This document shows, piece by piece, positions 9,101 through 36,384 of a stretch of DNA of 37,375 bases (position 1 is its first letter; each line of letters starts with the position of its first letter). This DNA comes from an uncultured Clostridia bacterium (lineage in GTDB: Bacteria > Bacillota > Clostridia > Oscillospirales > Ruminococcaceae). The notes under the pieces are model-generated. The model saw only the letters and a list, made by a program, of their open reading frames with translations, made no database searches and was not told the DNA's origin. Position numbers and translations under genes: made by a program. The stretch is from positions 1 through 37,375 of the forward strand of contig CANRLU010000011.1 in the NCBI GenBank assembly GCA_947631535.1, in the 5' to 3' direction.

Positions 9101-12100
9101 CGGCGTCGGACTGAAGCGAGGGCTCGATACAATTTATCACCGACACCGGCAGGGCCTCCTGCGTTTCGTTTTTCAGGGCAAACGTTCTGAGCTCGCAAGG
9201 ATATTCCGAATGGAGCCGCAGCTTCATTCCCGCAGAGAGCTTTTCGGTGCTGCGGTAAAACGCCGCGCCGTCGTCGCTGAATTCGGTGCAGAGCCCCGGG
9301 GCCTTGTCGGGCAGGAAACTCAGCGAGAGCGCGTCGCCGCCGTCGCTTATAAAGCTGAAAAAGCCTTTCGGCCTCATCATAAGGTCGCGAGTGCGGCAAT
9401 AGACGTTTTCCGAGCGGTACATCGAAACGCAGACGCCGTTGTCGGCAGCTATAAGGGTCATCTCGCCGTTGCACAAAAGCTTTGCCCGCGGCTCAGAAAG
9501 GCTGCACCCCTCAAACACCTCGGTCTCGCTCTCTTTCGGCTCGGGAGCCTGTCGCTTCGGCCTGCGCAGTGTGTTCTCAAACACCGCCGTTCCGAGGTGA
9601 AATCGCTCGTCTAAAAGTTCGAGCGCGCCTTTCACCCTCAAGTCGCGCATAAAGCGCTTCTGGATTATGTCTCCGCCCAGAAAATTGTCGAGCGCGCAAA
9701 GACTCATTCCCACGTGGTGAGCCATATAACTGCGGACGGGCTCGGGCTTTTCGGAGCCCGACGCCGTGAAATCGAGCGCCTCATAAAGTCCGTAAGAGCC
9801 GTACATGCCGTATCCGGCTATCCGGCGGAGGTTTTCGGGACCGTCGCCCCCCGCAAGGCAGAGCGAGAGATAGGTCGAATACGGCGAAACGACATAGCTG
9901 TTCTCAAGCCCGCGCTTTATTCCCGTGTTGGGAACGCCGTGGGCCATATAGCGGTAATTCAGGGCGCTGTCGAAGCTGTAATATCCGCTCTCGGATATCC
10001 CGTAGGGTCTGCCGAGGCTTTTGGCATACTGCTTCTGCACCCAAAGGGCATATCTCAGACTTTCGCCGAAGAGCGAGCCATCGGGGCTTTTGAGGAAGAT
10101 CTCGGGCATAAAGAATTCAAACATCGTTCCCGAGTAAGAGGCCGCCCCGCCGAAGAACCCCGCAGACAGCATAGACCTCGAGAGCCTAAGCCAGTGACTT
10201 TTGGGAACCTGCCTCGAAGCTATCGCCCAGAAGGACGTAAGGCGCGCCTCGCTCATAAGATAGTCGTAGCAGTTGGGGCTCTGCACGCCCTTTTCGGGGT
10301 CGATGCCTATCGCCATAAGCCCTCTCACGCCGTTGTAAAACACCGAGAGGTCGCAGGAATCTATCAGCTTTTCTATCCGCGAAACGAGCCGATTTATCCG
10401 CTGACCGCCGTCGGTCTCTTTAAGACCCTCTTTGAGGGCGGCAAGGCAGCAGACGAAATTGCCGCTGTCTACGCTCGAAACGTAAGGAGAAGGGCATATT
10501 TTCAGCGTAACGGTGTCGTACCAGTTATAGAGGTTCCCGTGATACTTTTCGAGACGCTCCACGGTGTGAAGAGTCCTCTCGAGGCGCTCGGCGGCGGCAC
10601 TCAAGTTTATCAGCCTGCGGTCGAAGGCCGCAAGCACCGAGAGCATATAGAGCCCGATATTAGTGGGAGAAGTGCGGTGAGCCACGCGGTATACCGGCGA
10701 AAACTGCACGTTGTCGGGCGGGAGGTCGTTATCGGCGGCGGTGACGTATTTTTCAAAGAATCCCCACATATCCGCGAACTGCTTTGAAAGCTCCCGAGAA
10801 TCGCGGTATTTTATGCGGCGCTCAGAAAGCGCGAGCCCGCCGTCGTTGAGCGCGAGAAGCGCCGGCATCGAAGAAAATACGGCGCCCATAAGCCTTATGA
10901 AGTAGTCGGGCGACCATAGCAGCGAGAGCGATGCCGTCTCCGCCCAGAGATAATATCTTAATGGATTGGCGCCGGAACGCTCGGAGGCGTCGGAGGTCGT
11001 CCAGTCGAGAAGATGCCGTCCGGTCATAAGCCGCCAAAGGGCGGTGAACATCGCTCTTAAGGACTTTACCGCGAGCGTGGGCAGCATTACGGTGCTGTAA
11101 AGGATATATCTTAAATTCTGCGAGGCAGAGCTTAAAAGTCCGGAATAGAAACGCCGCCCGAAGGTGCGGTCTTTGAGAAACACCCGCAGCGTTCCGAGTA
11201 TAGACGGAAAGAGCCACAAAAACAGCGAGGCCAAGGCTATAAAGGCGGCGGAAGCGGGATATATGAAGAAGGCGAGGAACATCGACGAGAAAACTGCCGG
11301 CGGCGTTGCGGCCCGGCGAAGATTGTCGGCAAGCTTTAGCTTTGAAAGCGGTCCGTACTTTTTAGAAAAGAGCTCGGGCAGGTTCTGGAAGTCGCCGCGT
11401 ATCCAGCGGTCGGCGCGGCGGTAATAGCTCTGGGGCGTGGACGGAAAGCCCTCGGTAAAGCATACGTCTCCGGCGTAGGCTGTCCTTAAAAGCTCGCCCT
11501 CAAGGATATCGTGGGAAAGTATCCGCTCGCCCTTGAGGCTGTTCGTACACTCAAGCAGTGCGGTGACGTTTATAAGCCCCTTTCCGCAGAATGTGCCGCG
11601 CCCGAAAACGTCCTGATAAAGGTCGGAGGCTTCCTCGTCGTAGCTCGAGCGCGAACCTATCCCGCCGAGGCTCTTGGCAAATTCGGTGCGGAGCGAATCA
11701 CGAAGGCGGGTGACCATTCGCGGGCAGATTATGCCATAGCCCGACACCACCTTTCCGCCGCTCACCTTTACCCTGTTAGACGGGTGCAGAGCTATGGACA
11801 AAAGCTCGCTCACGGAATCCATAAGCGGGTAGGTATCGGCGTCTACGGCGCAGATGTAGTCCGCCCCGACAAGGCGCTCAACTTCGCCGAAGGAGGCGTA
11901 AAAATCGCCCTCGCCGGTCTTCATATATTTCGCGATATCCATAAGCGCGCCACGCTTTCTGAGGGCTCCCATATATTCCTGCTGCGTTTCGGAAAAGCTC
12001 CGCTTTCTCACCACGCAGGAAAATCTTCCTTTGCAGATCTTATTCAGCCGCGACACCGTCTCGCCGAGACTTTCGATAACGGCGCGGTCTTCCGAGGTTA

Positions 12101-13160
12101 TAGGCACCTGCTCGGCGGGAAGATCAACGAGCGCGCAGATCAGTATATTCTCGGCGGTATCGAGGCAATGCAGCCTTAAAAGGCGGTCGTAGAGGCGCTC
12201 CGCGTCCTCCGGGTCGAAAACGGCCGCCGAAAGGACTATCGCCGCCTTGGTGCTTTTTACTTCATTCGAGCCAGCGTCGAGGCGCATAAGCCTTGCGGCT
12301 CCTCTGCCGCGCCTTAAAACGGCGTCGCTGAACGGGCGCAGGGCCTCGATCGACGGGAGAAACAGAAGAATTGCCGTAAAAGGAGCTTCGGCAGCAAAGG
12401 CAATAAATACCGACAGTGCCGCGGCCGCCGCAAACAGCAGCAGCGAGCATACTACCGCCGTTTTCTCGGGAAGTCGGGCTTTTTTTATCACGGCGAGGCT
12501 GCCGATATCGAGGTCGGCCCCGCGGTATTTCTCGAGCAGGTCGTCGCAGAGCTCAAGCTCGTCAATGCCGTATTCCGCCGCGCTGCGATATATCGCCTCG
12601 CGGTAAAAAAGGCGGGTGCGGGGGTCGCTTTCGCGGTAGGCCCTGTCCTCCGAGAGCTTTATCGCCACGGGGTTCAGAACGTCGTTTATTCTTTCAATGT
12701 CGAGACTGCCGAGGTCTGAAAGAAGCATAATGCAGCGAATAAGCCCGCTGTCCCAGCTTTCGGCAAGAGCGCATATTTCTTCGATGAGCGTATAGACGAG
12801 CCCATAGCCGAGGTATTCAAATTCGCAGCCGTAGACCCGCCTGTTCTCGCTCGCTCCGCGAAGCAGCATTATCACGGTATCGGTATCGGGGAAGCGGTCG
12901 TTTGAAGCGCGTATCAGAGCTTCGGCGAGCTCGAAACCGCCGTCAAAGAAAACGCTGCGCTTTTCGCTGCCGCAAGGTCCCGACCCCGCGCAGCTGAGCA
13001 CCGTGTGGAAATTATCGGCGAAAAAGGCTGCCGTATCGTTGGGAATACCGTAGGTGCAGAGCTCGGAATACAACCTTTTAAGGGCCTTTATCCGCCCCGA
13101 CGTTCTGCGTGACAGCTTTTTAAGGCTCACAAATCCCTTGCTCCCGCCGCCTTTGCTCAT
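6102..13160 (-). CDS. Cyclic beta-1,2-glucan synthase-like protein (GT84, glycoamylase-like domain, C-terminal GH94 phosphorylase-like module)
   Basis: 2352 aa. GT motifs [57 protein letters not shown]; multiple TM segments; middle region [13 protein letters not shown]...[14 protein letters not shown]; C-terminus [60 protein letters not shown] (GH94 catalytic Asp context). Confidence 0.9.
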   Translation of the reverse strand: [2352 protein letters not shown]

Positions 13161-15754: not shown

Positions 15755-16483
15755 TTAATTTACCGACGGGCGGATACCCGTCACAAACCGCGAGGTCCAG
15801 TAACCTGTGGTGATGTTGGCGGTTTTTACAGATTCGCCGGGCTTGGGGGCGTAAACTATCAGCCCGCCTCCGGCATATACTCCGCAGAAGCTCGCTTCTT
15901 CGCCGGGCTCGGCGGAAAAGTATACTATATCTCCCGAGGCGAGGTCGGAATATGCTATCTTTTCGCCCGCTTTGATCTGGTCTTTTACAAGACGCGGAAA
16001 TTCTATTCCGGCAGCCCTCACGCAGTAATATACGAGACCCGAGGCGTCGAAGCCCTTTTCGGGAGAGCTTTCGCCCGACTCGAATTTTACGCCGAGCTGC
16101 GCGGCGGCAGTGTCGATTATCGTCTGAGCTATGTGGGTGGGAAGCTCGCTCGCGGGCCCGTCGGCAGAAGTTTCGGGCTCGGTGACGTCAACTTCAGGCT
16201 CGGTGGTTTCGTGCTCCGTGACCTCCGGCTCCGTAACTTCGGGTTCCGCAGTCTCAGGTTCGGTGACTTCGGGTACTTCGGTCTCGGGCGGAAGAGCCTG
16301 CGAGGTGCCGTCGGTGGTATCGGCAGGAGTTACGTCGCTCACTGCGGGAACGGTGCCCGATGTGGGTTCGCTGCGGGTCGATGCAGAGCTCTGCTTTTCG
16401 ACCGCGCCGCAGGCGGCGAGCATCGCGCAGATGAGTATTCCCGCGACGACGGAATTGATTATGCTCAATTTGCATTTTTTCAT
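15755..16483 (-). CDS. NlpC/P60-like lipoprotein, predicted catalytically inactive
   Basis: 242 aa. Lipobox-like LICAMLAACG, (TEPEV)n linker, then an NlpC/P60-like fold: AQLGVKFESGESSPEKGFDASGLVYYCVRAAGIEFPR...SDLASGDIVYFS...CGVYAGGGLIVYAPKPGESV. Ala replaces the FDCSGL cysteine. Confidence 0.82.
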   Translation of the reverse strand: MKKCKLSIINSVVAGILICAMLAACGAVEKQSSASTRSEPTSGTVPAVSDVTPADTTDGTSQALPPETEVPEVTEPETAEPEVTEPEVTEHETTEPEVDVTEPETSADGPASELPTHIAQTIIDTAAAQLGVKFESGESSPEKGFDASGLVYYCVRAAGIEFPRLVKDQIKAGEKIAYSDLASGDIVYFSAEPGEEASFCGVYAGGGLIVYAPKPGESVKTANITTGYWTSRFVTGIRPSVN

Positions 16484-16820: not shown

Positions 16821-18290
16821 ATGAAAAAATTTTTTGCTGTGTTTGCCGCGCTGCTTATCATCTTTACGCTCGCGGTGCCGGTGCACGCCGAAAACCCCGT
16901 TGTTCAGTCGTCGTTCACGCCCGACCCCGCGCCGGTGGTTTTTGACGGCGTTCTCTATTTCTACTGCGGCGAGGATTCCGAGGAAGACAACGGCTTCTAC
17001 AATATGACCGACTGGCATTGCTTCTCGACCACCGATATGGTCAACTGGCTCGACCACGGCGTTATTATGTACCCCGAAGACTTTGAATGGGCAGAGCCGG
17101 GAAGCGCCTGGGCCGCGCAGTGCATCGAGCGCAACGGCAAGTATTACCTTTACGTGACCGTCACTACCGACGGCGGCCGAGCGATAGGCGTAGCCGTTGC
17201 CGACAGCCCGACGGGGCCCTTTAAAGACGCCCTCGGCAAGCCCCTCTGCGGTCCCGACTGGGCTTACATCGACCCGACGGTTATGATAGACGACGACGGT
17301 CAGGCTTACCTCTACTTCGGCAACCCGACTTCGTTTTACTGCAAGCTCAACGAGGATATGATATCGCTCGACGGCGGCGTTATGCAGCACGATATGACGG
17401 TAAAATCCTTCGGACCTATGCCGGGCGGCGGCACGAGCTACACCGAAGGGCCCTGGCTCTATAAGCGCAACGGCATCTATTATCTTGTATACGCTTCAAA
17501 CGGCGTTCCGGAGGGTATAGCCTACTCCACTTCCGACAGCCCCGTAGGCCCTTGGGAGTATCAGGGTCTCATTATGAACCCCGGTTCTTCCACGACTATC
17601 CACCCCGGAATAATCGAATATAAAGGGCACGACTACTTCTTCTATCACGGCGTTCTTCTCCCGAACGGCGGCTGGAACAAGCGCTCTACCGCCATTATGG
17701 AATTCGACTACGAAGAAGACGGCTCTATCCCGCTCATCGAGCACTCAATCCTCGGCGTGGAGCAGCTCGAAAACTTCAATCCATTCGGAAAGCACGAGGC
17801 CGAAACGATGAGCAACTCGAGCGGAGTAAAATCCGTCACCTCGGACAAGAGGGTCTATATCGGCAGCATCTCCGACGGCGATTACATAAAGCTCAGCGGC
17901 GTAGACTTTGAAGACGGCGCAAAGAGCTTCTCGGCAAATATCTACTCCGACACCAAAGGGAGATTGGAGATCCACCTCGACAGCCAGTACGGCAAGAAGA
18001 TAGGCACCATAGACCTCGACGGAAGCAGCAAATTCAAGGACGTCAGCTGCGCCCTCAGCGCCAACAGCGGCGTTCATGACCTCTTCTTCACCTTTATGGG
18101 CACCAGGGACTCCGACTTCAGATTCGATTACTGGGAGTTCTCTAAAGAGGAGACGGCAGGTTCTTCGGGTTCATCTTCCAACACCGTTATATACTGCGCG
18201 ATAGGCGCGGCGGTCGTTCTGCTCGCGGCAATAGTTATTGTAATTATCGTAAAGAGCTCGAAAAAGCGCACCGCAAAGGCCGACAAATAA
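16821..18290 (+). CDS. Membrane-anchored glycoside hydrolase family 43 protein with C-terminal CBM6-like domain
   Basis: 489 aa. Signal peptide; GH43 residues in context DPAPVVFDG, DPTVMIDDDG, TEGPWLYKRNGIYYLVYA; CBM6-like HEAETMSNSSGVKS...FRFDYWEF; C-terminal TM anchor VIYCAIGAAVVLLAAIVIVIIVKSSKKR. Confidence 0.9.
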   Translation: MKKFFAVFAALLIIFTLAVPVHAENPVVQSSFTPDPAPVVFDGVLYFYCGEDSEEDNGFYNMTDWHCFSTTDMVNWLDHGVIMYPEDFEWAEPGSAWAAQCIERNGKYYLYVTVTTDGGRAIGVAVADSPTGPFKDALGKPLCGPDWAYIDPTVMIDDDGQAYLYFGNPTSFYCKLNEDMISLDGGVMQHDMTVKSFGPMPGGGTSYTEGPWLYKRNGIYYLVYASNGVPEGIAYSTSDSPVGPWEYQGLIMNPGSSTTIHPGIIEYKGHDYFFYHGVLLPNGGWNKRSTAIMEFDYEEDGSIPLIEHSILGVEQLENFNPFGKHEAETMSNSSGVKSVTSDKRVYIGSISDGDYIKLSGVDFEDGAKSFSANIYSDTKGRLEIHLDSQYGKKIGTIDLDGSSKFKDVSCALSANSGVHDLFFTFMGTRDSDFRFDYWEFSKEETAGSSGSSSNTVIYCAIGAAVVLLAAIVIVIIVKSSKKRTAKADK

Positions 18291-18309
18291 TTTCACATAA
18301 AGCATAAAA

Positions 18310-18337
18310 GATCCCGCACCAAAGCCGGTGCGGGATC
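18310..18337. terminator. Intrinsic terminator between convergent GH43 and SGNH genes
   Basis: GATCCCGCACCaaagccGGTGCGGGATC followed by CGTTTTTTT. Confidence 0.85.
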
Positions 18338-18347
18338 CGTTTTTTTA

Positions 18348-20612
18348 TTATTCTTCGGGATAGCCCTTTTCAAGGAAGCGGCCGTAATCGCCCCAGAAGT
18401 AATCGCTCGCATATTCCTCGTAAAGCTCGGGGTCTACGTAGATTTTGAGCTGCGGGTCGCAGCCGTCGGTCGCGAGGGATTCCGACATGCTGTTAGGCAC
18501 CGAAACGTCTCCCGCGCCGATGCCCTCGGGAATGATGAGCACTTTCACCGACGAGCCCCGAAGCGCCCAGCCGTCCATCCTCGAAACGTTTTTGCCGAGG
18601 GTGAGCTTCTCGAAGCGTGTATCCGCAAAGGCGTCGGCGGCTATTGTCCTCACCGGCGTGCCGCTGACGGTGTCGGGCACCGTTATTTCGTCCTGAAGCT
18701 TTCCGAGGTCGCTGAGCCCGGTGACCGTAAACGAGCCGTCGTCGGCCCTTTCGAGCTTAAGATACATATTGTCGCTCGTGATAACGCTCCTGTAGCCGGG
18801 CAGAATGTCGGAAAGCAGGTAATCCTCGTATTCCTCCCAATCTATGAATATGCTTATCTCTCTTATTCCGAGCGAGGCGGGGTCTTCGGGAAGAGTGAGC
18901 TCGCCAAGAGGAGTCCCCGCCGCAAGGTGGACTTCGAGCCCCTCCCTTACGCCGGCAAAGGCATAGGGCGATATCTCCCTGATGTTCTTGCTGAGCTCTA
19001 ACTTTTCAAGGAGCTCCGCGCCGTCAAAGGCGTCCATATCTATCAAACGCACGGGCAGACCGTCGTGCTCTGCGGGAACGCTCAGCTCGGAGCGCATCTT
19101 TCCGTTGTCGGTAAGAGAAACGACTATCGCATAGCTCCCGCTCGGGTCGGTCGAGTATTCAAAGCTCTCCTCAAGGCTGATGATATCCGCATAGCGCTTG
19201 AAGCCGTCTGCGTTTTTGAACGCATCGTAGTCGTAGGGCGAAACATACAGCTTAAAGCCGTCGGCGCAGCCCTCTCCGAAGCCCTGCTCGGGAAGCTTCA
19301 CAAGGCGCGGGTCCACACCCTGCGGGATTATAACTCCGCCGAGATTCCTAACGCGCTCAACAGCGCCCTCCTCTATTTCGGATATATTCTTTCCGAGCGT
19401 GAGGAGCACGAGCCTGTCGCACCCGATGAGCGAGCCGCCGCAAAGCGTGGTGACGGGTATGCCGTTTATCTCGTCGGGGACCGTAAGATATGCCTTTTCG
19501 CGGCCTGTTTCGGTAACTCCGGTTATCGCCCAACCCCTGCCCTCCGAAAGCCTCTCAAGGTCGAAGTCTTCGCAGTCAGGCCGCTTGCCTGCGGGCTGCG
19601 GAAGCTCGCTTACCGGTATCGTCACCTCGTCGGAGGACATCTCGCGCCTGATGTCGTCGATAAGCTTTACCGTCCTCACGGTGACGCCGGAATTGTTGAG
19701 GTGAAACTCCGAGTCGTAAAAATAGCCGCCGTCAAGGATATAGTCGTAGATGTTGCTTATGACCTTGCAGTCGAGCGAGAGAACGAGATTGCGGTAAAAA
19801 TCTTCGATATCTTCGTCCGAGACACCCGCGAGCGCCTCTTTATTCATCGGCGGGAAGCTGAAATAAACCTCTCCGCCCTTTTTGCGGACGTACTTTACGT
19901 AGTCGTTCACATAGTCGATATATTCCTCGTAGTCGGTGGTAACGCCGTCAGTGTAATCGGTCCTGAAATCGAGGGTTATGGCGTTGCCGTATCCCGAGAG
20001 GATATTATACGGGCGGTCGAACACGTTATCGCCGTATTCGTTGAAGTTCTCCTTGCGGTAGGCGCCAGCGTTTTCGGGGAGCGTGCCGTCAAGGATATAT
20101 CCGAGTTTATCCCCCGCGAAGCCCCACAGCGCCCCGACGAGCCGCTCGTACTCACCGCTGTCAACGTCTTTGAGCATATATGCGCTGCCGTCGAGGGCCT
20201 GCGCGGCGGTCTCGGAGTTGAAATACAAGGACAGCGTCTGCGCGTTGAGCTCCGGCGCGAGTATCATTATGTCGCCCTCGTTGATGTCGGCCTTTGAGAG
20301 GTCCATCATAAGTTTTGTGCCGAGGTTGGCGTAAAGCCCGAAGTTCACCACGTCATACCCGAGCTCCTCGGATATGAGCCCGCTGTCGAGTCCGAAGGCG
20401 GCAGAGCTCCCCGCGACGATAACTATCTTCGGACTGTCGGCGCTTTTCAGGCGGTCGTATTTTTCCGAGAGCTCGCCCAAAAAGGTATCGTTATAAACGG
20501 GCGGGAGCGCAAAGGCTATTATTATAACGGCAAGTATCGGCACAAGAAACAGCGCGAGCATAGGCGCAAAGACCTTATAAAAGCGCTTTCTTTCGGTATT
20601 TTTCACACTCAC
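18348..20612 (-). CDS. SGNH/DltD-AlgX-like membrane protein with three C-terminal BspA/LRR_5-like modules
   Basis: N-terminal TM; SGNH-like VIVAGSSAAFGLDSGLISEELGYDVVNFG...ILAPELN and FYDSEFHLNNSG (Dxx-H); then modules such as LTVPDEINGIPVTTLCGGSLIGCDRLVLLTLGKNISEIEEGAVE. ORF extends to 20726 but GTG at 20612 has RBS GAGGAGG and avoids overlap with the MBOAT gene. Confidence 0.75.
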   Translation of the reverse strand: MSVKNTERKRFYKVFAPMLALFLVPILAVIIIAFALPPVYNDTFLGELSEKYDRLKSADSPKIVIVAGSSAAFGLDSGLISEELGYDVVNFGLYANLGTKLMMDLSKADINEGDIMILAPELNAQTLSLYFNSETAAQALDGSAYMLKDVDSGEYERLVGALWGFAGDKLGYILDGTLPENAGAYRKENFNEYGDNVFDRPYNILSGYGNAITLDFRTDYTDGVTTDYEEYIDYVNDYVKYVRKKGGEVYFSFPPMNKEALAGVSDEDIEDFYRNLVLSLDCKVISNIYDYILDGGYFYDSEFHLNNSGVTVRTVKLIDDIRREMSSDEVTIPVSELPQPAGKRPDCEDFDLERLSEGRGWAITGVTETGREKAYLTVPDEINGIPVTTLCGGSLIGCDRLVLLTLGKNISEIEEGAVERVRNLGGVIIPQGVDPRLVKLPEQGFGEGCADGFKLYVSPYDYDAFKNADGFKRYADIISLEESFEYSTDPSGSYAIVVSLTDNGKMRSELSVPAEHDGLPVRLIDMDAFDGAELLEKLELSKNIREISPYAFAGVREGLEVHLAAGTPLGELTLPEDPASLGIREISIFIDWEEYEDYLLSDILPGYRSVITSDNMYLKLERADDGSFTVTGLSDLGKLQDEITVPDTVSGTPVRTIAADAFADTRFEKLTLGKNVSRMDGWALRGSSVKVLIIPEGIGAGDVSVPNSMSESLATDGCDPQLKIYVDPELYEEYASDYFWGDYGRFLEKGYPEE

Positions 20613-20625
20613 GGTCTTCGCCTCC

Positions 20626-22110
20626 TCAGAACTGGAAATAGATGAACGAGCTTGCGCCGTTGCCCGAAAGAAGTAACAGCCAGGCGGCGGCGACGGTCCA
20701 GCAAAGAACGACATACATAAACGCACGGTCGGAAGCCGCGGCTCCGAAGCCGCTTTCGGAGTGGTTTTTAAGGGCTATCTGCCTGTCTAACTGACCGGTG
20801 ACGATTATCGAGAGCAGCGCCGCTGCGGCGGGAACGAGCCCGAGCCCGAGCGCTTCAAGCGAGGCAGAAAGGTTTATCCCTCCCCAGCCGGCAAAGAGCT
20901 GCTTATAGAGCACTCCGAGGTCGGAGAGGCTGTTTGCCCTGAACGCCACCCAGGCGATAAGCACGAGCACAAACGTGCCGAGGCGCTTAAGCGCAAGGAG
21001 CCACTTCGATTCGGGCGGGACTTTCAAAAGCGCCCAGAATTTCTTTCGCGGCTTTTCGGTGAGATATCCTATTATCTGATACAGTCCGTGCATAACTCCC
21101 CAGAGGATATACGTCCACGCGGCGCCGTGCCAGATTCCGGAAATCAGAAACACTATAAATATGTTTGCAAACTGCCGTGCGCGCCCTTTTCGCGAGCCGC
21201 CGAGGGGTATGTAGATGTAATCCGTGAACCACGACGTCAGCGAGATATGCCATCTGCGCCAGAAGCCCTTTATATCCGTCGCGCTGTAGGGGTCGTTGAA
21301 GTTCTGCATAAGCTTTATCCCCATCGTCCTTGCGCAGCCTATCGCTATGTCGGTGTAGCCCGAAAAGTCGCAGTATATCTGCACGGCAAAGAACACCGTG
21401 GCTATAAGAACGGTGAAGCCGTTGAGCAGCGAAGGGTCAGCGCTCCCGACGCCGTTATACACCGCATCGACGTATTTCGAGAGCTGATCCGCTACGGCTA
21501 TCTTCTTGAAGAAGCCGACCGCCATCATCTTGAGACCTGCTGCGGTGTCGGCCGCGGAAAACGGGTTATCCGCCCGAAGCTGAGGCAGAAGGTTCTCGGG
21601 GCGCTCGATAGGTCCGGCTACGAGCTGCGGGAAGTAGGAAACATAAAGCGCGTAATAGCCGAAGTGGTGCTCCGCCTTCATATTCCCCCTGTAGACATCG
21701 ATGACGTAGGAGAGCGTCTGGAAGGTGTAAAAAGATATTCCGACGGGCAGAATGAGGTTCAGCGTGAACTCCCCCGCAGGTATCCTTATGAGATTCAGAA
21801 ACGCCGTGATGTTGCGCGAAAGGAAGTTGAAGTATTTGAAGAAGAACAGCACCGCAAGGCTCGCGGTCAGGGCTGTTATCAGAAGGAGCTTTTTTATACC
21901 CTTTTTCTGCGCTTTTTCTATCCCCAGAGCGCAGAGGTAAGAGACAACGGTCGTGAAAAGAATAAGATAAATAAGGTCGGGCTGCCAGCTCATATAGAAG
22001 TAGTAGCTCGCCGCAAGGAGCATTGCCCATCTTGCTTTTTTCGGGATCACCCTGTAGAGCAGAAGGACTACGGGGAAGAAGATAAGGAATGAGAAGGAGT
22101 TAAATACCAT
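20626..22110 (-). CDS. MBOAT family O-acyltransferase (AlgI/DltB-like)
   Basis: MVFNSFSFLIFFPVVLLLYRVIPKKARWAMLLAASYYFYMSWQP; GYYALYVSYFPQLVAGPIERPENLLPQL; DFSGYTDIAIGCARTMGIKLMQNFNDPY; FLISGIWHGAAWTYILWGVMHGLYQ with the MBOAT His. Start at 22110 has RBS AAAGGAG. Confidence 0.95.
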   Translation of the reverse strand: MVFNSFSFLIFFPVVLLLYRVIPKKARWAMLLAASYYFYMSWQPDLIYLILFTTVVSYLCALGIEKAQKKGIKKLLLITALTASLAVLFFFKYFNFLSRNITAFLNLIRIPAGEFTLNLILPVGISFYTFQTLSYVIDVYRGNMKAEHHFGYYALYVSYFPQLVAGPIERPENLLPQLRADNPFSAADTAAGLKMMAVGFFKKIAVADQLSKYVDAVYNGVGSADPSLLNGFTVLIATVFFAVQIYCDFSGYTDIAIGCARTMGIKLMQNFNDPYSATDIKGFWRRWHISLTSWFTDYIYIPLGGSRKGRARQFANIFIVFLISGIWHGAAWTYILWGVMHGLYQIIGYLTEKPRKKFWALLKVPPESKWLLALKRLGTFVLVLIAWVAFRANSLSDLGVLYKQLFAGWGGINLSASLEALGLGLVPAAAALLSIIVTGQLDRQIALKNHSESGFGAAASDRAFMYVVLCWTVAAAWLLLLSGNGASSFIYFQF

Positions 22111-22378
22111 CGCCGTCGGCTCCTTTCCCGCGCTTTTTTGTGGTAAACAGCGCGACCGCAAGGCTTAAGAGCAGCGCGAAAAAGAGTTCTTCGGGCTTTG
22201 CGCCAGCGGCGAGCATAAGCCCTATAACGAGCAGGTGCAAAAATGCGTTCAGCGCCGTGAGCGCAATAAGCGCCGTTTTATCGAGCTTTCCGAGCGGCAC
22301 CGAAAGAATATGAACGGCAGCTATCGCGGCCATTATCACCCAGAACCATACGGTGCCCAGAGCTTCGTAATTTCCCAT
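22100..22378 (-). CDS. Small hydrophobic membrane protein (about three TM) within the O-acylation operon
   Basis: 92 aa, TM segments WFWVIMAAIAAVHIL, ALIALTALNAFLHLLVIGLMLAAG, FFALLLSLAVALFTT; its 3' end overlaps the MBOAT start codon by 11 nt. Confidence 0.75.
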   Translation of the reverse strand: MGNYEALGTVWFWVIMAAIAAVHILSVPLGKLDKTALIALTALNAFLHLLVIGLMLAAGAKPEELFFALLLSLAVALFTTKKRGKGADGDGI

Positions 22379-22397
22379 TCAAAGACCTCCCGCTGCG

Positions 22398-24497
22398 TTA
22401 ATACGACGACGGGTCGGCAAGATATGCCTTTATGTCGTCTGCAAGATTGCGGGTGCGCTCCTTTGCGCCCTCGTCGTTTAAGTGCCACTCCGAATCGTAG
22501 AATTTTGAGTGCTCCATAATGTATTTACCCACGTCGGAGATAACGGGGTAATCGAGCACCTCGGCACAGTAGGCGTTTACCTTGTCATACTTTTCCTGCG
22601 TGAGCTCATCGGGACGCAGTCTTGAGAGGTCGTGAGGGCCGAAGCTCATAACAAGGACCGCTCCCCGAGCCGTTATCTTTTCGTTGACGGCGTTGAGGTT
22701 GTCGTCGTAAAGGTGAGCGCTCGAAATAGTCTCGGTGGCGCCGCCGAAGTTGCCCCTTACGGAGGTCCTGACCGTCCCTATGTCGCCGTATTTGTTTATG
22801 TCCGCGTCGAGCTGATATTCCTTGCCCGACTGGTGTATAGCCGGAGTGAGCGAATTGTCCGAGGTGTCGCCCACCTGGAATTTGCGGAAGCAGTCCCAGA
22901 AGCCGGTGTAGTCCGACATATCGACGTCTCTGAATATGTCGTAGCACTGCTCATTCCCGCGGAACATCTTCGCGTGGAACTCGTTGGTGCCCATAGGCGC
23001 GCCTCCGCCGTATTCCGGTGCGTGAACGATTATATCTCCCTCGCCGCAGTATTTCGAGATGACGTCGAGGAAGAAGAGCGACGGGTTGGCGGCGTTGGTG
23101 CCGTAGTTCACCACGGAGTAACCCGGCATAAGCTCCTCAAAGAGCTCGGAATTTATGCCGTTTAACGACGACGACCCCGAAACCACGACTATCTTTTTGC
23201 CCTCAAGCGTTCTTAGGCGGTCGTATTTTACGTTGAACGAGCCCTCTATCTGTCCGGAATAGACCGGCAGGCGCTGAGCGTTGAGGACTACCGTCGAGAC
23301 GTTTCGGTCAAAGCTCTCGTCATAGACGGTCACCACCGAGTCGAAGAACACTACCTCTTCAAGGCTTTCGCAGGCGCTGAAGGCGTCCTTTTCCACCGTT
23401 TTGACGGTCCGCGGTATGACCACCCGCGTGATATCGCCGTCAAACGCGCCCGAAGCTATCGAGAGAACGGGCTGGCCGTCGATCTTTTCGGGTATCACAA
23501 CAAGTCCGCCGTCGCCGGTATAGCCCTTTATCTCTATGCCGGTCTTCATTTCGGTGCGCTGGTTGAGCCTGCCGAAGCCGAAGGTCGAGTCGGTTATTAC
23601 CTCTATTTCTTTTTTCTCATAGATAAAATCGGAGTCGGGCGATTCCTTTGCCCACACTACGTGGAGATCGAGGCTGTCGCCCTCGACATAGCACACTCCG
23701 CCCATATTCGAGAACCCGGGAATGTCGTTTGCCGAGGCGTAGTCTTCATATTCCGCCGCAGAGGTGCTGTATCCCACGGCAACATATCCGTCGCGGAGGA
23801 ATTTTCCGTTAGATTCCATAGTCTGCTGCATAGAGTAAATATCGCTGTAAGAGGCCGAAACGGTATAGGTGTCGGCACCGGTGTCCGAAACATAGCCGCC
23901 GTCGAGGTGATAAAATATGCTGTAGTCGGAATTTCCGGTGAAATTGGCGTATAACACTTTGCTGCCGTCGATATAAAACGTATATGTAGGCTCGGTGCTT
24001 ATAAGCCTGCCGCCGTCTTCAAGATATCCTCCCTCAGACCAGCCCGCAAATTCTATCCTCGACTTTCCCTCGGCGCTCAGAGTGACCTCGGAGGGCCCCG
24101 CGAGCAATACCTCCGACTCCGAAACGCTGCCGTTTTCGCTGTTCTTCTTCACTTCAAGATACACGACCTCTGACTTCGGCACGACTATCATATCTACGGT
24201 GGTCGGCGCAAATACGTCTTTAAGGCGCAGCCTGCCGTCCTCCTCGTCGTAATCGGCGCCGGCAGTGTTGCCGAGGTAGATATATCCCTCGTCGATGCTC
24301 ACCTTGAAAGTGACCGTTCTGCCCGCCTCGACCTCGGTGATGTTCTTCCCCGAGATGCTTATTCCGTCGCATCTGCGCAGGATCACCCTGACGCTGTAGC
24401 TGTCGCCCCGCACGGCTTCCTGTCCGCACCCCGCAAGCATAAGCGCAAAGACAACGGCGAGCGCCGCGGCAATAAACCTCCTTGCAAGACCTTTCAT
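22398..24497 (-). CDS. SGNH-like lipoprotein with N-terminal InlB_B/Listeria-Bacteroides-type repeats and a BspA-like module
   Basis: 699 aa. Lipobox LMLAGCG; region SIFYHLDGGYVSDTGADTYTVSASYSDIY...; BspA-like IPEKIDGQPVLSIASGAFDGDITRVVIPRTVKTVEKDAFSACESLEEVVF; C-terminal SGNH-like KIVVVSGSSSLNGINSELFEELMPGYSVVNYG...HAPEYGGG and FYDSEWHLNDEG. Confidence 0.78.
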   Translation of the reverse strand: MKGLARRFIAAALAVVFALMLAGCGQEAVRGDSYSVRVILRRCDGISISGKNITEVEAGRTVTFKVSIDEGYIYLGNTAGADYDEEDGRLRLKDVFAPTTVDMIVVPKSEVVYLEVKKNSENGSVSESEVLLAGPSEVTLSAEGKSRIEFAGWSEGGYLEDGGRLISTEPTYTFYIDGSKVLYANFTGNSDYSIFYHLDGGYVSDTGADTYTVSASYSDIYSMQQTMESNGKFLRDGYVAVGYSTSAAEYEDYASANDIPGFSNMGGVCYVEGDSLDLHVVWAKESPDSDFIYEKKEIEVITDSTFGFGRLNQRTEMKTGIEIKGYTGDGGLVVIPEKIDGQPVLSIASGAFDGDITRVVIPRTVKTVEKDAFSACESLEEVVFFDSVVTVYDESFDRNVSTVVLNAQRLPVYSGQIEGSFNVKYDRLRTLEGKKIVVVSGSSSLNGINSELFEELMPGYSVVNYGTNAANPSLFFLDVISKYCGEGDIIVHAPEYGGGAPMGTNEFHAKMFRGNEQCYDIFRDVDMSDYTGFWDCFRKFQVGDTSDNSLTPAIHQSGKEYQLDADINKYGDIGTVRTSVRGNFGGATETISSAHLYDDNLNAVNEKITARGAVLVMSFGPHDLSRLRPDELTQEKYDKVNAYCAEVLDYPVISDVGKYIMEHSKFYDSEWHLNDEGAKERTRNLADDIKAYLADPSSY

Positions 24498-24746
24498 AAT
24501 AATGCTCCAATCAATACGGTAATTATTTTTATCCTACCACCCTTTAAAGCCGTGTGTCAACGGCTTTTTCACTTATCTTGACCTTTCTGCTTGCGCGAAA
24601 ACATCAATTTTATCATTCTGACAAAAGCTTGTTATTTTTCGCAATAATTTTATAGACATAATGCAAGGACTTTTGCGCCGAAATACGTTATTATTGCAGT
24701 ATCGGCAAATTTACCCGCCGCATAAATTTTACTTGGAGGACATCTG

Positions 24747-27362
24747 ATGAAGCGATTATTTTCGATCATTACAGCCGTTGTAATGCTGTGCGGATTATGC
24801 GGATTATGCGGCTGTTCAGCAGGAAGCAAAGAGCCCGGACTTACCGCTCCCGAGACCACCGCTATAGCGGAAGCGGAGCTTAGCGAACAGACCGTGACCG
24901 CAGAGGCTACCGAGCCCGTTACCACCGCGACCGAAGCGACCACCACGGAGGCGACGACCACCGAAGCCACGACAACGGAGGCAACTACCACCACGGTGAC
25001 CACTACCACCGAAGCGACGACCACCACCGTTACCACCACTACCGCCGCGACTACCACAACTCCCGCGCCGACAACGCCTGCAACGACTACTACCCCCGTC
25101 CCGACGACCGTCGCCACGACCACGACTCCGGCTCCGACCACCGTCGCCACGACTACGACTCCGGCTCCGACCACCGCCGCGACCGCTGCGGCGACTAACA
25201 CCTCTCAGAAGAGCTCGAAATTCCGCAGGCCGCTCTCAAACGAAATGCCGATGCTGATAGTACATATCGACACCTGGTGCTTCCCCGACCCGCAGAAGGT
25301 GATAAACCTTATCCCCAAGGAGCTCAGGCCTTATGTTGTGTTCAACATCTCCCTCTCGATAGGCCACGACGACAACGGCGTTTTCCAGCGCTCGGGTTCG
25401 GGCGAAAACGGCGGCTACGAGACGGCTAAATCCTGGATACGCGCCTGCGCCGAGGAAAGAGTGTGGGTAATGGTGCAGCCCGCGAGCGGCGGATTCAGCA
25501 ACTTCCCCGACTATAAGAAGGACGACGACCTCGAGGAGACCCTCTTCGGCGAATTCTTCCGCGATTATCCCAACTTTATAGGCTTCAACTACTGCGAGCA
25601 GTTCTGGGGCTTCGACGACAAATACGACCAGGCCGGCACGAAGCGCTCTCCCACCCTGCCGCAGCGCTATGAGCACTTCGGAAACCTGCTTGAGCTCTGC
25701 AACAAATACGGCGGATATCTCGTCGTAAGCTGGTGCGGAAATCAGTGGGGGCAGTGGTGCAGCCCGCTCGCGCAGCTTAAAACTCACAGCTACTTCGCAA
25801 GTCAGCTCTCGAAATATGCCGACAACTTCATTCTCTGCGACAAATACACCCAGAGCTCCTACAAGCACGATGTCCAGAGCCAGGTGCTCGGGTTCTACCT
25901 CTCGGGATACTGCGGCAACTTCGGCGTGAGATACGACGAGACCGCCTGGAGCGACAACATCGACGGCGAATACACGCAGTCCACCGGCCTCTCGATAATG
26001 CTCGAAAGTATGCTTATGAACGGCGCCACCGTTATAGACGGCCCCGAGCTAATATGGGCCGACGATATCCACGAGATAGGCAGCACCAACGACTCCGACG
26101 GCTATAAGTCCCGCCAGTGGGATACCTATGACGTCTTCGACAACGTGACCTTGGATATGTTCAAGAAGATAGTTGACGGCTCGCTGAGGATACCTACCCG
26201 CGAAGAGGTCATTAAGAGAACGAAAGTCGCGATAATCCAGGACGTCACCTCGGGAAACGACGACCAGAAGTTCTGCACGCCCGAAAATCTCTTTGAAGGG
26301 GTCTACCGCCTCAAGGGCGACGGCGGTCTGCGCAACAACTTCTATCACTACAAGACCACCGGCAGGTATCCCACCATACCCGAAATATACAGGTTCAAGA
26401 ACCGTAACCTCGAAAGTCAGTTCACCAAGCTCGTAAAGGCATCGTCATACAACAGCACCTGGGGATCCGTGAGCAACAAGATGAGCGATCTCAATATGCT
26501 CTTCCCCGAGGAATACACCGGAGATATGTATGCCGCAAGGCTTGAAAACACCTGGTTCACCTACAGCTATTATCTGAAGAATCAGGCCGCGAACGCAACT
26601 CTCGACCTTAAATACAACACCTGCGATTCGCTGGGTCTGAAATACTCAATGTATTCTTCGGGAATAATCAGGGAATATCCCGACCACATAGATTTCTGGC
26701 TCAACAACTACGACGACAACAACGCCCGCACCCTCCGTACCGACGTTATCACCATCAAAGGCGCCTCGCAGAAGCCGGAATTCACCCTTACCGCGCGCAC
26801 TTCCTCGCAGGTGAAGCCCTCGGCCGAAGAGAGCTGGTCTGACGGCGTTTACACCCTCACCGTAAAGCACAACGGCCCCGTTGACATAACAATAAAGTGC
26901 AGCGGCACTGCGGAGGGCAGAAAGACCTCTTACACCAAGACCACCCTCAGCGAGCCCAAAAAACCTGCGGCCTACACCGGCGAGCGCCAGTATGAGGCGG
27001 AATGTTTTGAAACAAAGGGCGTTGAAAGGGTAGTAACCAACGGCTACGGCACCGGCAACGAAGGCTATACCGCACAGGGATATCTGATATTCGGCCGCGA
27101 GAACGCCTCCGTTAAAGACACCGTTTCGGTGCTCGAAGAGGGAGAACACGTTCTCGGGATAAGGTATTCCGTAACCTCCGACGCAACTCTCGCCCTTTAT
27201 GTGAACGGCACAAAGGTGGGCAATATAACCCTGCCGAAGTCCTCGGGCTGGAGCACCAAGAAGTTCAACGTGACCCTTAAAAAGGGCTCGAACAAAATTG
27301 AGCTCAAAGCCGAGAGTTGGCTCAGTTCAAAGCTGCTGCTCGACAACTTCACTCTGAAATAA
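24747..27362 (+). CDS. Glycoside hydrolase family 98 protein with Thr-rich linker and C-terminal CBM35/CBM6-like module
   Basis: 871 aa. Lipobox-like LCGLCGC; Thr-rich linker; MPMLIVHIDTWCFPDPQKVINLIPKELRPYVVFNISLSIGHDD, YETAKSWIRACAEERVWVMVQPASGGFSNF, FFRDYPNFIGFNYCEQFWGFDD match the GH98 catalytic domain; C-term YEAECFETKGVERVV...LLLDNFTL. Confidence 0.88.
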   Translation: MKRLFSIITAVVMLCGLCGLCGCSAGSKEPGLTAPETTAIAEAELSEQTVTAEATEPVTTATEATTTEATTTEATTTEATTTTVTTTTEATTTTVTTTTAATTTTPAPTTPATTTTPVPTTVATTTTPAPTTVATTTTPAPTTAATAAATNTSQKSSKFRRPLSNEMPMLIVHIDTWCFPDPQKVINLIPKELRPYVVFNISLSIGHDDNGVFQRSGSGENGGYETAKSWIRACAEERVWVMVQPASGGFSNFPDYKKDDDLEETLFGEFFRDYPNFIGFNYCEQFWGFDDKYDQAGTKRSPTLPQRYEHFGNLLELCNKYGGYLVVSWCGNQWGQWCSPLAQLKTHSYFASQLSKYADNFILCDKYTQSSYKHDVQSQVLGFYLSGYCGNFGVRYDETAWSDNIDGEYTQSTGLSIMLESMLMNGATVIDGPELIWADDIHEIGSTNDSDGYKSRQWDTYDVFDNVTLDMFKKIVDGSLRIPTREEVIKRTKVAIIQDVTSGNDDQKFCTPENLFEGVYRLKGDGGLRNNFYHYKTTGRYPTIPEIYRFKNRNLESQFTKLVKASSYNSTWGSVSNKMSDLNMLFPEEYTGDMYAARLENTWFTYSYYLKNQAANATLDLKYNTCDSLGLKYSMYSSGIIREYPDHIDFWLNNYDDNNARTLRTDVITIKGASQKPEFTLTARTSSQVKPSAEESWSDGVYTLTVKHNGPVDITIKCSGTAEGRKTSYTKTTLSEPKKPAAYTGERQYEAECFETKGVERVVTNGYGTGNEGYTAQGYLIFGRENASVKDTVSVLEEGEHVLGIRYSVTSDATLALYVNGTKVGNITLPKSSGWSTKKFNVTLKKGSNKIELKAESWLSSKLLLDNFTLK

Positions 27363-27414: not shown

Positions 27415-29439
27415 TCACTTCAGCTTATAAAGCTTTATTTCGGCGATGTTGCAAAGATAGTCTCCCCCGCCCGACGGAACGTCGTAGCGGATATAGCGGT
27501 ATTCGCTGCCTTTGAGCATCGCGAAGTTCCAGCCGGTGGCGGGAGAAGCGGTTATCTCGTAAAGCTCCGTCCAGTCCTTGCCGTTGTCGGAACCGTAGAA
27601 CTTTCCGCCCACCATTCTTCCGGCAAAACCGCTCCTCGGGGCAAATCCTATAGCGTCGAACTCCGTCTTCTTTCCGAGGTCGATCTCAAGCCAGCCGTCG
27701 GCAACGCCGTCAAAGAAAGTGTCGGTTCTGCCGTCGATAACGTGGTCCACGGTGTCAGAACCGTTATTCCAAGCCGTAGAACCGGTTATCTTCGCCTTCT
27801 TCATCGAGACTTCCTCGAGGTCGGTGCTGCCCGCCTTGGCGTTGTGAAGAACGAACGTCGTGACGGAATTTCCCTTTAATTCGGCGACAAATCCGCCGTC
27901 GTAGGTGTAAATGTCGTCGAGCTCGGCCCACTGTTCGCCGTCGTCTCTGCTGCCGCTCGTGCGGGTGACGTTTACCCTGCTTCCTATCGTCTCGAACTGC
28001 GAGAGGTCGAAGTTAAAGGTGCGGTCAGAAGCCTTGGGGTTTATCGCGACTACTACGAGGGTGCCGTCGGCTTCGTTATAGGCGGCTATGGAGTCGTCTC
28101 CGGTGCTGATAAGGGTGTATCCCGGGCGGATATAGCGCGTAAACTGACCCATAGTGTAGTATTTCTGAGTGAGGATTATGTCGTCGTTGTCGTGGTCGGC
28201 TACGGCAAGGCCCCAATAGCCGGTGTTGAGGTCTATCATACCCGAATCCTGCCGCCCGAGATAGCCCTCGGCGCAGATATGCTTGTCGATAGCCTGCCAC
28301 ATTACCCACGCGGCCGGTGTGAGGGAATTCATATCCGAGATTATCTTTTCGCCGAACCAGATAGCGGCGCCCATTTCTCCGGCGTCTTCGCCCGCGGAGC
28401 CGTTGCCGTCCACTTCGCTCATCCAGAGCTTAAAGCCTTCGTCGAGCGAGAGCTGACCGAGCTCCCCTGCCCTCGTGGGGTTATAAGTGTGGGTGTTTAT
28501 CCTGCCGATAACCTTTTTTGCGGCGTCGGAATAGGACTGATACTCAATTATCTGGAGCTCGGTTGAGGTCTCGTCGCTCGCGGCAACGATAACGTTGTCG
28601 AGGTCATACTGCTTGAGCGCCTCGGCGGTGAGCTCGATTATCTTCGACTGTGCCTCGCCGGCGTCGAAGTGGCAGCCCTCCTGCTTATAGCTGTAGGCTC
28701 CCCAGAAGTTGGTGTTGGGCTCGTTCATCGGGGAAACGCTCGTTACCGTTATCCCGAGGCGGTTCTGAATGTAATCGGTCACGTGTGCGAGATATTCCGC
28801 AAATGCCTCGTAGGAATCCTCCCTGAGATTGTTTTTGTTGGAATCCGTTCCGCCCGACGAGCAGCCGCTGACCGTCATAAAGTAAGGCGGGGAATTCGAG
28901 AACACCTCGACTATCGCGCTGTCCCCCGCGGCTTTTACGCAGCGGTCGAGGACGTTGAGCTGGTTGTAGTCGGCGGTATAGTCGTAGTTGCCGTCTTTGT
29001 CCATCCAGCCGGGGACCATCGAGTCGGTCCTCGTGATGTGAGTGTGCGAGGGGTCGTCGCCGCCGCCGATGTTATATCTCATAATGTTCATCTTCAGGCC
29101 GTCTTCGCCGAAGAAAAGGTCCGCCGCCTGCTGCGCGAGACTGTCGGAATATCCGACTCTGTTGGCCCACCAGCAGAGGCTCGTGCCCCAGCCCTCGAAG
29201 ACGCCGCCGTTCTGCTTAAAGGCGTTGAGCGGCGAAACCGTGACCGTCGCGTCGATATTTACGCTGTCCGGCGTGACTATGAGCGAAGGGTCGATGTATT
29301 CCTCGGTCACTTCGGGAGCAGTGCCCGCATTTTCGGCATTTTCAGCATTTTCCGCCTCGCCGGCGCATCCTGCAAGCATACCCGCCATTGCAATGCCGAG
29401 CATAAGTGAAACAACTCTTTTCAAAATTATATTTTTCAT
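27415..29439 (-). CDS. Glycoside hydrolase family 30 lipoprotein with C-terminal F5/8 type C (CBM32-like) domain
   Basis: Lipobox GMLAGCAG; GGVFEGWGTSLCWWANRVGYSDSLAQQAADLFF, LKMNIMRYNIGGGDDPSH, SVSPMNEPNTNFWG (acid/base), LWMSEVDGNGSAG (nucleophile context); C-term discoidin-like DGRTDTFFDGVADGWLEIDLGKKTEFDAIGF...YRYIRYDV. ATG at 29439 has RBS GGCGGAAAG; the ORF track start is further upstream. Confidence 0.88.
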   Translation of the reverse strand: MKNIILKRVVSLMLGIAMAGMLAGCAGEAENAENAENAGTAPEVTEEYIDPSLIVTPDSVNIDATVTVSPLNAFKQNGGVFEGWGTSLCWWANRVGYSDSLAQQAADLFFGEDGLKMNIMRYNIGGGDDPSHTHITRTDSMVPGWMDKDGNYDYTADYNQLNVLDRCVKAAGDSAIVEVFSNSPPYFMTVSGCSSGGTDSNKNNLREDSYEAFAEYLAHVTDYIQNRLGITVTSVSPMNEPNTNFWGAYSYKQEGCHFDAGEAQSKIIELTAEALKQYDLDNVIVAASDETSTELQIIEYQSYSDAAKKVIGRINTHTYNPTRAGELGQLSLDEGFKLWMSEVDGNGSAGEDAGEMGAAIWFGEKIISDMNSLTPAAWVMWQAIDKHICAEGYLGRQDSGMIDLNTGYWGLAVADHDNDDIILTQKYYTMGQFTRYIRPGYTLISTGDDSIAAYNEADGTLVVVAINPKASDRTFNFDLSQFETIGSRVNVTRTSGSRDDGEQWAELDDIYTYDGGFVAELKGNSVTTFVLHNAKAGSTDLEEVSMKKAKITGSTAWNNGSDTVDHVIDGRTDTFFDGVADGWLEIDLGKKTEFDAIGFAPRSGFAGRMVGGKFYGSDNGKDWTELYEITASPATGWNFAMLKGSEYRYIRYDVPSGGGDYLCNIAEIKLYKLK

Positions 29440-29646
29440 TTTCTTTCCGCCTTTCCGGTAGTTGTACGTTTGGATTATGCCAAAATTATAACACCGCCTT
29501 TTTTTATTTTCAAGCTTTGTCAAAGGATTTTTGCGGCAAAATAAATTTCGTTATTATCTGTCAATATTATTTAGTTATTTATCATTCAAAGACGGCTGAA
29601 AAAGTGGTAGAATAGCAATATCACCTCAAAAAAGGAGACGACTAAA

Positions 29647-35325: not shown

Positions 35326-36213
35326 TTATTCGGGAATCCGATCTCCGAAAAAGATAGACAGCTGTGCGTAGATAATGCCCCAGTCCTGACGGCGTCCCGT
35401 CCATTTAGCGGTTATGTTCATCATCGCAAGATACAGCATCTTGAAGAGGCTGTCATCAGTCGGGAAGACCGACTTTTCCTTGGTCACTTTCCTGAGCTGA
35501 CGGTTGAATCCTTCAATTGCATTTGTCGTGCAGATAAGCCTGCGAACCTCTTCGGGGAACTTGAAATAGGTGCTTAGATTCGCCCAGTTCTCACGCCAAG
35601 ACTTTGAAATCTTAGGGTATTTCTTGTCCCACTTCTCCGAGAAGACATCTAATGCATCAAGTGCGGATTGCTCGTCTACAGCGCCGTATACTGCTTTCAG
35701 ATCTTTCATTAACTCCTTGATATCTTTGTAACTGACGTATTTGCTTGAATTACGGAGCTGATGGATAATGCAGTTCTGTATCTCGGTTCTCGGGAAGACC
35801 GCTTCGATCGCGGCGGAGAAACCTGTCAGATTATCCGTACACGCAATGAAGATATCTTCAACCCCTCGGTTGCGAAGACTGTTGAGTACCGTCGCCCAAA
35901 ACTTGGCGCTTTCGTTCTCGCCTACCCACATGCCGAGGACGTCCTTTTTACCTTCAAGATTTATCCCTATCGCTATGTATACAGCTTTCTTGACAATCTG
36001 TCCTTCGCTGCGAACGTGGTAATGGATAGCGTCTAAGAACACCACCGCATAGACGCTCTCAAGCGGTCTTTGCTGCCATTCTTTGGCGATAGGCAGTATC
36101 TTATCCGTAATGCGGCTTACGGTAGTATCTGAGACCTCTATGCCGTAGATGTCACGTATATGAGTTTCTATGTCCCCGATAGTCATTCCCTTTGCGTACA
36201 TAGACAGGATTTT
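35326..36213 (-). pseudogene. IS256-family transposase, C-terminal part (separated from N-terminus by a palindromic insertion)
   Basis: KILSMYAKGMTIGDIETHIRDIYGIEVSDTTVSRITDKILPIAKEWQQRPLESVYAVVFLDAIHYHVR...CTDNLTGFSAAIEAVFPRTEIQNCIIHQLRNSSKYV...TTNAIEGFNRQLRKVTKEKSVFPTDDSLFKMLYLA. Confidence 0.93.
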
Positions 36214-36217
36214 CTTT

Positions 36218-36384
36218 ATGAACGCGGGGTTTTGCCCAAGAGGACGAGCAATCAATCGTACAACAACGCAATTAAAACTCTTTGAGGACAAGCGGTCAGT
36301 CATTTATGACCGCGACGTCCGAAAAGCAAGTTTTAATGCTTTGTTTGATTGCAAAGTCCGATTGGTAGCAAAACTAGCTTTCAT
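36218..36384. mobile_element. MITE-like imperfect palindrome inserted in the IS256 transposase gene (boundaries approximate)
   Basis: Two ~80 bp arms are imperfect reverse complements (ATGAA[C/A]GC, GTTTTGC, [A/C]GGAC, GCAATCAA, ATTAAAACT shared) around the perfect centre GCGGTCAgtcatttaTGACCGC-type core at 36292-36313; it adds about 164 nt between TSISQ and KILSMY. Confidence 0.75.

Follow-up and report, generated by a model that had tools for sequence, protein, structure and literature searches.

The window, a 37,375-nucleotide stretch of DNA from an uncultured Clostridia bacterium, carries a cassette of four minus-strand genes in close succession, and all four open reading frames (ORFs) were found where the original prediction had placed them. 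In gene order they encode a lipoprotein, a small protein, an MBOAT O-acyltransferase and a transmembrane (TM)-anchored protein, with intergenic gaps of 19, −11 and 13 bases. Since they are framed by a sigma-70-like site and a 13-pair terminator, the four genes resemble one transcription unit. The terminator 3′ of the set is strong; promoter-like sites of this type are weak evidence alone, with 5 observed against 4.3 expected in shuffles. The features of the locus are:

24531–24560, minus strand: promoter-like site TTGACA-18-TAGGAT upstream of the lipoprotein gene (a pattern match, not proof)
22398–24497, minus strand: lipoprotein of 699 aa with a lipobox (LAGC, Cys24), a beta-rich stalk (aa 32–300), an LRR_5 module and a C-terminal SGNH domain
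22401–23285, minus strand: SGNH domain of the lipoprotein (aa 405–699; Ser442, Asp668, His672), from alignment, profiles and predicted fold
22100–22378, minus strand: small protein of 92 aa with three hydrophobic helices, between the lipoprotein and MBOAT genes
20626–22110, minus strand: MBOAT O-acyltransferase of 494 aa (PF03062, E = 7.2e-35, 121 bits against a cut-off of 27)
20629–20646, minus strand: acyl-shuttle motif F489-I-Y491-F-Q-F494 at the MBOAT C-terminus (motif function according to PMC12148441)
18348–20612, minus strand: TM-anchored protein of 754 aa with a GTG start, one TM helix (aa 10–42), an SGNH domain and three LRR modules
19620–20519, minus strand: SGNH domain of the TM protein (aa 32–331; Ser69, Asp300, His304), from alignment and predicted structure
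18351–19580, minus strand: C-terminal LRR region of the TM protein, about aa 345–754 (PF13306, E = 1.6e-7, above cut-off)
18309–18338, minus strand: intrinsic terminator-like hairpin of 13 pairs, then TTTATGCTTT (a pattern match, not proof)

The first gene had been described as a lipoprotein with repeats and a BspA-like module ahead of a C-terminal SGNH domain, and the lipobox, the LRR_5 match and the predicted fold confirmed this. The protein has an N-terminal signal, and its lipobox cysteine was aligned and invariant in all 25 related lipoproteins. The BspA-type LRR_5 module (PF13306) was located at about aa 333–400, with the profile match covering aa 347–399 (E = 3.4e-6) at a score of 27.4 bits that is slightly below the Pfam cut-off of 27.7 bits. 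Matches to the Listeria-Bacteroides repeat (11 of the 25 related lipoproteins) and to a divergent InlB B-repeat (10 of 25) were assigned to the stalk. An AlphaFold2 model of the full-length lipoprotein (pLDDT 82.5) had BspA-type LRRs and SGNH enzymes as its structural matches. Multiplied forms occurred at related loci. Three lipoprotein-SGNH paralogues stand in a row before the MBOAT in L087 (5209–11385, minus strand; genome G438), and a fused lipoprotein with tandem B-repeat–LRR–SGNH units is encoded in L010 (4372–8040, plus strand), where Asn replaces the block V His of the first SGNH domain and the second domain is intact. A tandem like that of L010 was found in L013 (3750–7501, plus strand), split into ORFs of 789 and 453 aa, apparently by a frameshift.

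In the last gene, the TM helix, the SGNH domain and the LRR_5 matches were all located in the order foreseen, with the SGNH domain first and the BspA-like modules behind it. The three LRR modules begin near aa 376, 510 and 643, and a search for DNA-level repeats between them found none. BspA-type LRRs (PF13306, E ≤ 0.1) were present in 22 of 24 TM proteins and in all 25 lipoproteins. In two related loci, L009 (9338–11470, plus strand) and L013 (9407–12286, plus strand), the TM-anchored SGNH domain was preceded by a DUF4234 region and additional TM helices.

As judged from alignments, the SGNH regions of the lipoprotein and the TM protein are homologous: they shared 28% identity over 304 aa (E = 9e-25), and their profile-profile comparison gave 99.95% (E = 6.6e-38). 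Both proteins have a predicted SGNH fold, as the original prediction had proposed, and in the structural search both models matched SGNH enzymes. The AlphaFold2 model of the TM-protein domain (pLDDT 91.4, pTM 0.90) had a rhamnogalacturonan acetylesterase as its top PDB match (E = 2.7e-4, Foldseek probability 1.00) and also matched other SGNH enzymes, including CjPatB (8tlb, probability 0.77). Foldseek probabilities for the best SGNH matches reached 1.00 and TM-scores by target were modest, about 0.33–0.53, so the fold class is clear yet a close structural relative was not found.

The active-site blocks were compared in the TM and lipoprotein domains and in the SGNH domains of MBOAT pairs with a single partner. 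The block I Ser, which lies in an [AGS]-G-S motif and is the nucleophile of the cassette domains, was kept in all TM (24/24), lipoprotein (27/27) and single-partner domains (10/10), and the block V His in 24/24, 26/27 and 10/10, respectively. Over the 51 TM and lipoprotein domains, Ser and the block II Gly were found in 51 and His in 50, in canonical order. Block III reads PE (APE), with Glu in place of Asn in 51 of 51 domains of both clades; AlgX and AlgJ are likewise without the block III Asn and yet are counted as SGNH-like (PMC9487903). The acid four residues ahead of His was Asp in 23 of 24 TM domains, and Asp, Asn or Gly in 16, 8 and 3 of the 27 lipoprotein domains, in which Asp or Glu is frequently found at −2 instead. 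The shared motifs G-S-S-x-x-x-G and FYDSE[FW]HLN therefore stood in part: the Ser and His blocks are present in both proteins and both clades, whereas the second Ser of G-S-S is Asn, Ala or Gly in several relatives, and the acid of the His block varies within the lipoprotein clade. Because Ser and His are kept and the lipoprotein acid is variable, both heads look active, as had been suggested from their motifs, with the TM head the more constrained.

Neither SGNH domain was assigned to a Pfam or NCBIfam family in profile searches. The AlgX/AlgJ family PF16822 had no matches at E ≤ 1 among the window proteins. The DHHW profile PF14286 and the TDHHW motif were absent from both SGNH proteins, while the two other MBOAT partners of the genome, used as the positive control, both matched PF14286. 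Both proteins also failed to match DltD (PF04914) in the Pfam search, and the nearest PDB entry to the SGNH profile was DltD 7dxm, at a non-significant E of 0.096, so that any kinship with DltD would be distant. The PatB/DUF459 profile was unmatched by either protein, and resemblance to PatB (8tlb) is in fold only. The suggested HMM search for the DHHW, ALGX and DltD families thus gave no match for either protein, and since S precedes H, the domains are not permuted.

Among solved structures, the MBOAT was best aligned with DltB (E = 2e-30 over aa 107–398 of 494). Its WHG motif (His328) was invariant in all 35 MBOATs compared. The FIYFQF terminus was invariant in 11 close relatives, and FxYxxF ended all 35 MBOATs; it stands on the C-terminal part that DltB lacks, since the alignment stops at aa 398. 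In PatA, the Tyr of FXYXXF is auto-acetylated and PatB takes an acetyl-Tyr peptide as donor; the shuttle motif is located on the MBOAT in acyl-CoA systems and on DltX in the Dlt system (PMC12148441). With the DltB equivalog TIGR04091, the window MBOAT scored 157 bits against a cut-off of 375. An acyl-CoA donor is favoured over D-Ala-DltC because FIYFQF is on the MBOAT and because this score is far below the DltB cut-off; the donor is probably an acetyl-like acyl-CoA. The acyl-transfer reading of the MBOAT and its SGNH partners was thereby strengthened, although the MBOAT is not DltB and the SGNH domains are not those of AlgX, AlgJ or DHHW proteins. We consider it highly likely that the four-gene set is a surface MBOAT-SGNH acylation system, and it very probably carries small acyl groups across the membrane onto a surface polymer. 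Glycan as the acceptor for both proteins, and LRRs that bind glycan or protein, as in the original proposal, are putative. It is a separate, third system of this genome, because the other two MBOATs pair with DHHW proteins (L002, L003).

The small protein had no match in Pfam or NCBIfam. Eighteen of the 22 contiguous cassettes encode it; it was missing from the L033/L034/L089 clade and ambiguous in L092. A role as the equivalent of DltX was rejected for two reasons: the MBOAT itself carries the shuttle motif, and that clade has no small protein.

A protein search recovered ten relatives, all in the order lipoprotein-SGNH, small protein, MBOAT, TM-SGNH and with mostly unrelated flanks. As these had come via the TM protein, whole-genome surveys with SGNH profiles were carried out on samples at the level of genus (31 genomes), family (149), order (345), class (341) and phylum (300). 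Relatives and surveys together gave at least 23 distinct cassettes, 22 contiguous and one split, the halves of which sit at the ends of two contigs in G399. Weak profile matches in G000:C7, G044 and G086 (E between 1e-5 and 5e-7) were discounted; for G000:C7, the matching protein (L032) resembles a glycoside hydrolase. The cassette was found in 7 of the 31 genomes of the window's genus, which marks it as an accessory system. It was spread over several families of the order; elsewhere, the class sample had it once (G704), and of the 300 genomes in the phylum sample the window's own was the sole carrier.

The consistent association with the MBOAT held in the neighbourhood survey: every lipoprotein-SGNH lay with an MBOAT and a TM-SGNH, and none was found apart from a cassette in the genomes surveyed. 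In G449, an MBOAT and a TM protein were present and a lipoprotein was undetected, and several genomes had an MBOAT with only one SGNH protein. The order lipoprotein-SGNH, MBOAT, TM-SGNH was fixed in the 23 cassettes while flanking genes varied. In all 23, the lipoprotein carried its SGNH domain at its C-terminal end or close to it, and the partner protein immediately behind its TM helix. The swap in domain order, at first regarded as unusual, is hence no one-off: it is a fixed, old trait of the whole family.

Flanking genes were considered as a clue to the acceptor and discarded, as no conserved family flanked the cassettes beyond the few related ones with glycosyltransferases or Wzy_C. L009, L012 and L013 apparently adjoin polysaccharide genes, with Wzy_C upstream of L009 and L013; the flanks scanned held three Wzy_C and five glycosyltransferase proteins in total. 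Most cassettes, including that of the window, lie outside any glycan synthesis cluster. An origin from mobile elements was also set aside, since phage and plasmid records gave distant matches at the SGNH level only.

In a tree of 61 SGNH domains, the reading of which is limited by rooting and long branches, the lipoprotein domains formed one clade (99/92) and the TM domains another (87/74). The TM clade grouped (96/85) with the SGNH domains of most ordinary pairs in which an MBOAT has a single partner. The lipoprotein clade was the faster-evolving, divergent one. The simplest reading of this tree is that the SGNH pair arose once, the TM protein representing the standard MBOAT partner and the lipoprotein an added branch. 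In the MBOAT tree, a single cassette clade was weakly supported (63/61). Distances of the lipoprotein, TM protein and MBOAT correlated (r = 0.87–0.94; 0 of 5000 permutations), which is expected for genes inherited together and so is no proof of physical contact.

The nearest working model for the cassette, by analogy, would be AlgI/AlgJ/AlgX. For alginate, the proposed route of acetyl runs from AlgI to the membrane-anchored AlgJ and on to AlgX, which has a carbohydrate-binding module (PMC4148444, PMC10641220). As in AlgI/AlgJ/AlgX(/AlgF), and in the cellulose system WssH/I/F/G, one MBOAT is accompanied by two SGNH proteins; as in AlgI/AlgJ/AlgX, one of these is TM-anchored and the other is further out with a binding module. 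AlgJ and AlgX are circularly permuted (H-S-G-N) with a DXH motif (PMC9487903), whereas the cassette domains have S before H and no match to PF16822. BspA LRRs and a B-repeat-like stalk take the place of the carbohydrate-binding module, a lipoprotein, from a Clostridia bacterium, serves as the outer enzyme, and AlgF was not seen in the cassette, a 3-TM small protein being in its place. PatA/PatB, which O-acetylates peptidoglycan, shares the C-terminal FXYXXF Tyr on the MBOAT and a non-permuted SGNH partner, and CjPatB is among the fold matches of the TM-SGNH; PatA/PatB has one SGNH protein, in contrast to the two of the cassette, which also has LRR modules and lacks a PatB/DUF459 match. MBOAT-DHHW systems (PatA1/PatB1-type SCWP O-acetylation) are likewise Gram-positive MBOAT/SGNH pairs, but DHHW is a different, permuted SGNH family that neither cassette protein matched. 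DltB/DltX/DltD resembles the cassette in its DltB-like MBOAT core, acyl-Tyr shuttle and SGNH partner; however, DltX, DltA and DltC were not seen, the DltB score was below cut-off and the DltD family was unmatched.

Unnamed pairs of an MBOAT and a single TM-SGNH (L035–L040, L091, L093, L094 and L096) have a homologous SGNH protein adjoining the MBOAT, and those of their MBOATs that were checked end in FxYxxF. They differ from the cassette in that the SGNH protein is about 310–335 aa, without LRR and without a second SGNH. One of them, L096 (3439–5867, plus strand), on the Pseudomonas asturiensis plasmid pCC1524 (NZ_CP047266.1), has its MBOAT and homologous SGNH beside glycosyltransferases, with the SGNH annotated as a 'hypothetical protein'; this homologue extends the SGNH family beyond Clostridia. 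A search of literature on MBOAT or SGNH proteins with leucine-rich repeats, covering papers readable without subscription, found no description of the cassette. The cassette adds an SGNH clade, unnamed by Pfam and NCBIfam, to envelope modification in gut bacteria.

We favour, as rather likely, an O-acylation machine of the envelope whose two catalytic heads stand at different heights and would work as a three-step relay. By homology, the MBOAT would load Tyr491 with an acyl group brought across the membrane, the likeliest being acetyl from acetyl-CoA. The SGNH domain of the TM protein, which starts straight after the membrane helix, would accept the group on Ser69, as its phylogeny and anchor suggest. 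From there it would go to Ser442 of the lipoprotein, whose SGNH domain ends a stalk-plus-LRR arm of approximately 370 residues, and finally to an envelope glycan or polymer more distant in the wall. With the domain order opposed in this way, one SGNH domain would be placed at the membrane and its counterpart at the arm tip, and the LRRs beside each may be docking surfaces. Transfer from the TM-SGNH to the lipoprotein-SGNH is itself plausible, at slightly under an even prospect. Against this reading, G449 has no detectable lipoprotein and other genomes have an MBOAT plus one SGNH protein, so the second head is dispensable for acylation as such. The faster evolution and variable acid of the lipoprotein clade, the Glu of block III in both clades and the position of most cassettes outside glycan synthesis clusters also count against it. 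A broader reading, which we regard as speculative, is Gram-positive acylation at a distance: the MBOAT would feed two paralogous heads, one at the membrane and one at the tip of a lipid-anchored arm, the inverted order would have been selected for this geometry, and the LRRs would dock the heads to each other, or else to a target in the wall or at the surface, which may be a protein.

Both SGNH domains may instead draw on the acyl-Tyr of the MBOAT for different acceptors or positions, without a relay, the TM protein acting close to the membrane and the lipoprotein at a greater distance from it. The Ser and His and the block I and V motifs kept in both clades are consistent with this, as is the TM-type SGNH that occurs alone with an MBOAT in other genomes and in G449, and the lipoprotein has been multiplied (three in G438, the fused tandem in L010) as though for several acceptors. 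However, the one shuttle Tyr would need access to a domain held far out on a long arm, and we consider parallel transfer rather unlikely. It is also unlikely, in our judgement, that the TM-SGNH writes the modification as a transferase and that the lipoprotein-SGNH, as an O-acyl esterase, trims or recycles it. Esterase activity is the default for SGNH domains, acetylesterases are among the best SGNH matches of both proteins, and the lipoprotein clade is the divergent one; against this, block III departs from that of hydrolases identically in both clades, and an obligatory partnership with an MBOAT in one operon is what transferases typically show.

That the lipoprotein is a binding scaffold with a dead or dying SGNH enzyme would fit its variable acid residue and the His lost from the first of the two L010 domains, but Ser is kept in 27 and His in 26 of 27 lipoprotein domains despite a median pairwise identity of 28%, and L010 retains its intact second domain, so we regard it as very improbable. 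A D-alanylation (Dlt-type) system, to which the best-aligned solved MBOAT structure and the non-significant DltD match point, is the least credible reading given the DltB model score, dltA and dltC unrecognised among the window genes, and a shuttle motif on the MBOAT as in acyl-CoA systems and not on a DltX-like microprotein.

For the question why some acylation systems, that of alginate included, need two SGNH enzymes, related Clostridia give a matched series in which an MBOAT is combined with one SGNH, with two, or with tandem or triplicated outer SGNH domains. Since the pair seemingly arose once and its opposite order is fixed, the favoured relay, parallel transfer and the transferase–esterase division could be separated by single active-site mutants.

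Several other genes of the window encode carbohydrate-active proteins. A 2352-aa cyclic beta-1,2-glucan synthase-like protein (6102–13160, minus strand), with glycosyltransferase, glucoamylase-like and GH94 parts, matched NdvB/cyclic glucan synthase structures (E = 3e-261); no homologue was found near the cassette in the relatives read. The cassette is surrounded by glycoside hydrolases (24747–27362, plus strand; 27415–29523, minus strand; 16821–18290, plus strand), namely GH98, GH30_2 with an F5/8 domain and GH43 with CBM6, and the GH30–GH98 pair was syntenic only in L004 and L005 among the relatives. At 15755–16483 (minus strand) lies the gene of an NlpC/P60 protein whose N-terminus is signal-like and which has a long low-complexity stretch of the EVTEPE type; a Mutator-family transposase (PF00872) is encoded at 35326–36303 (minus strand).
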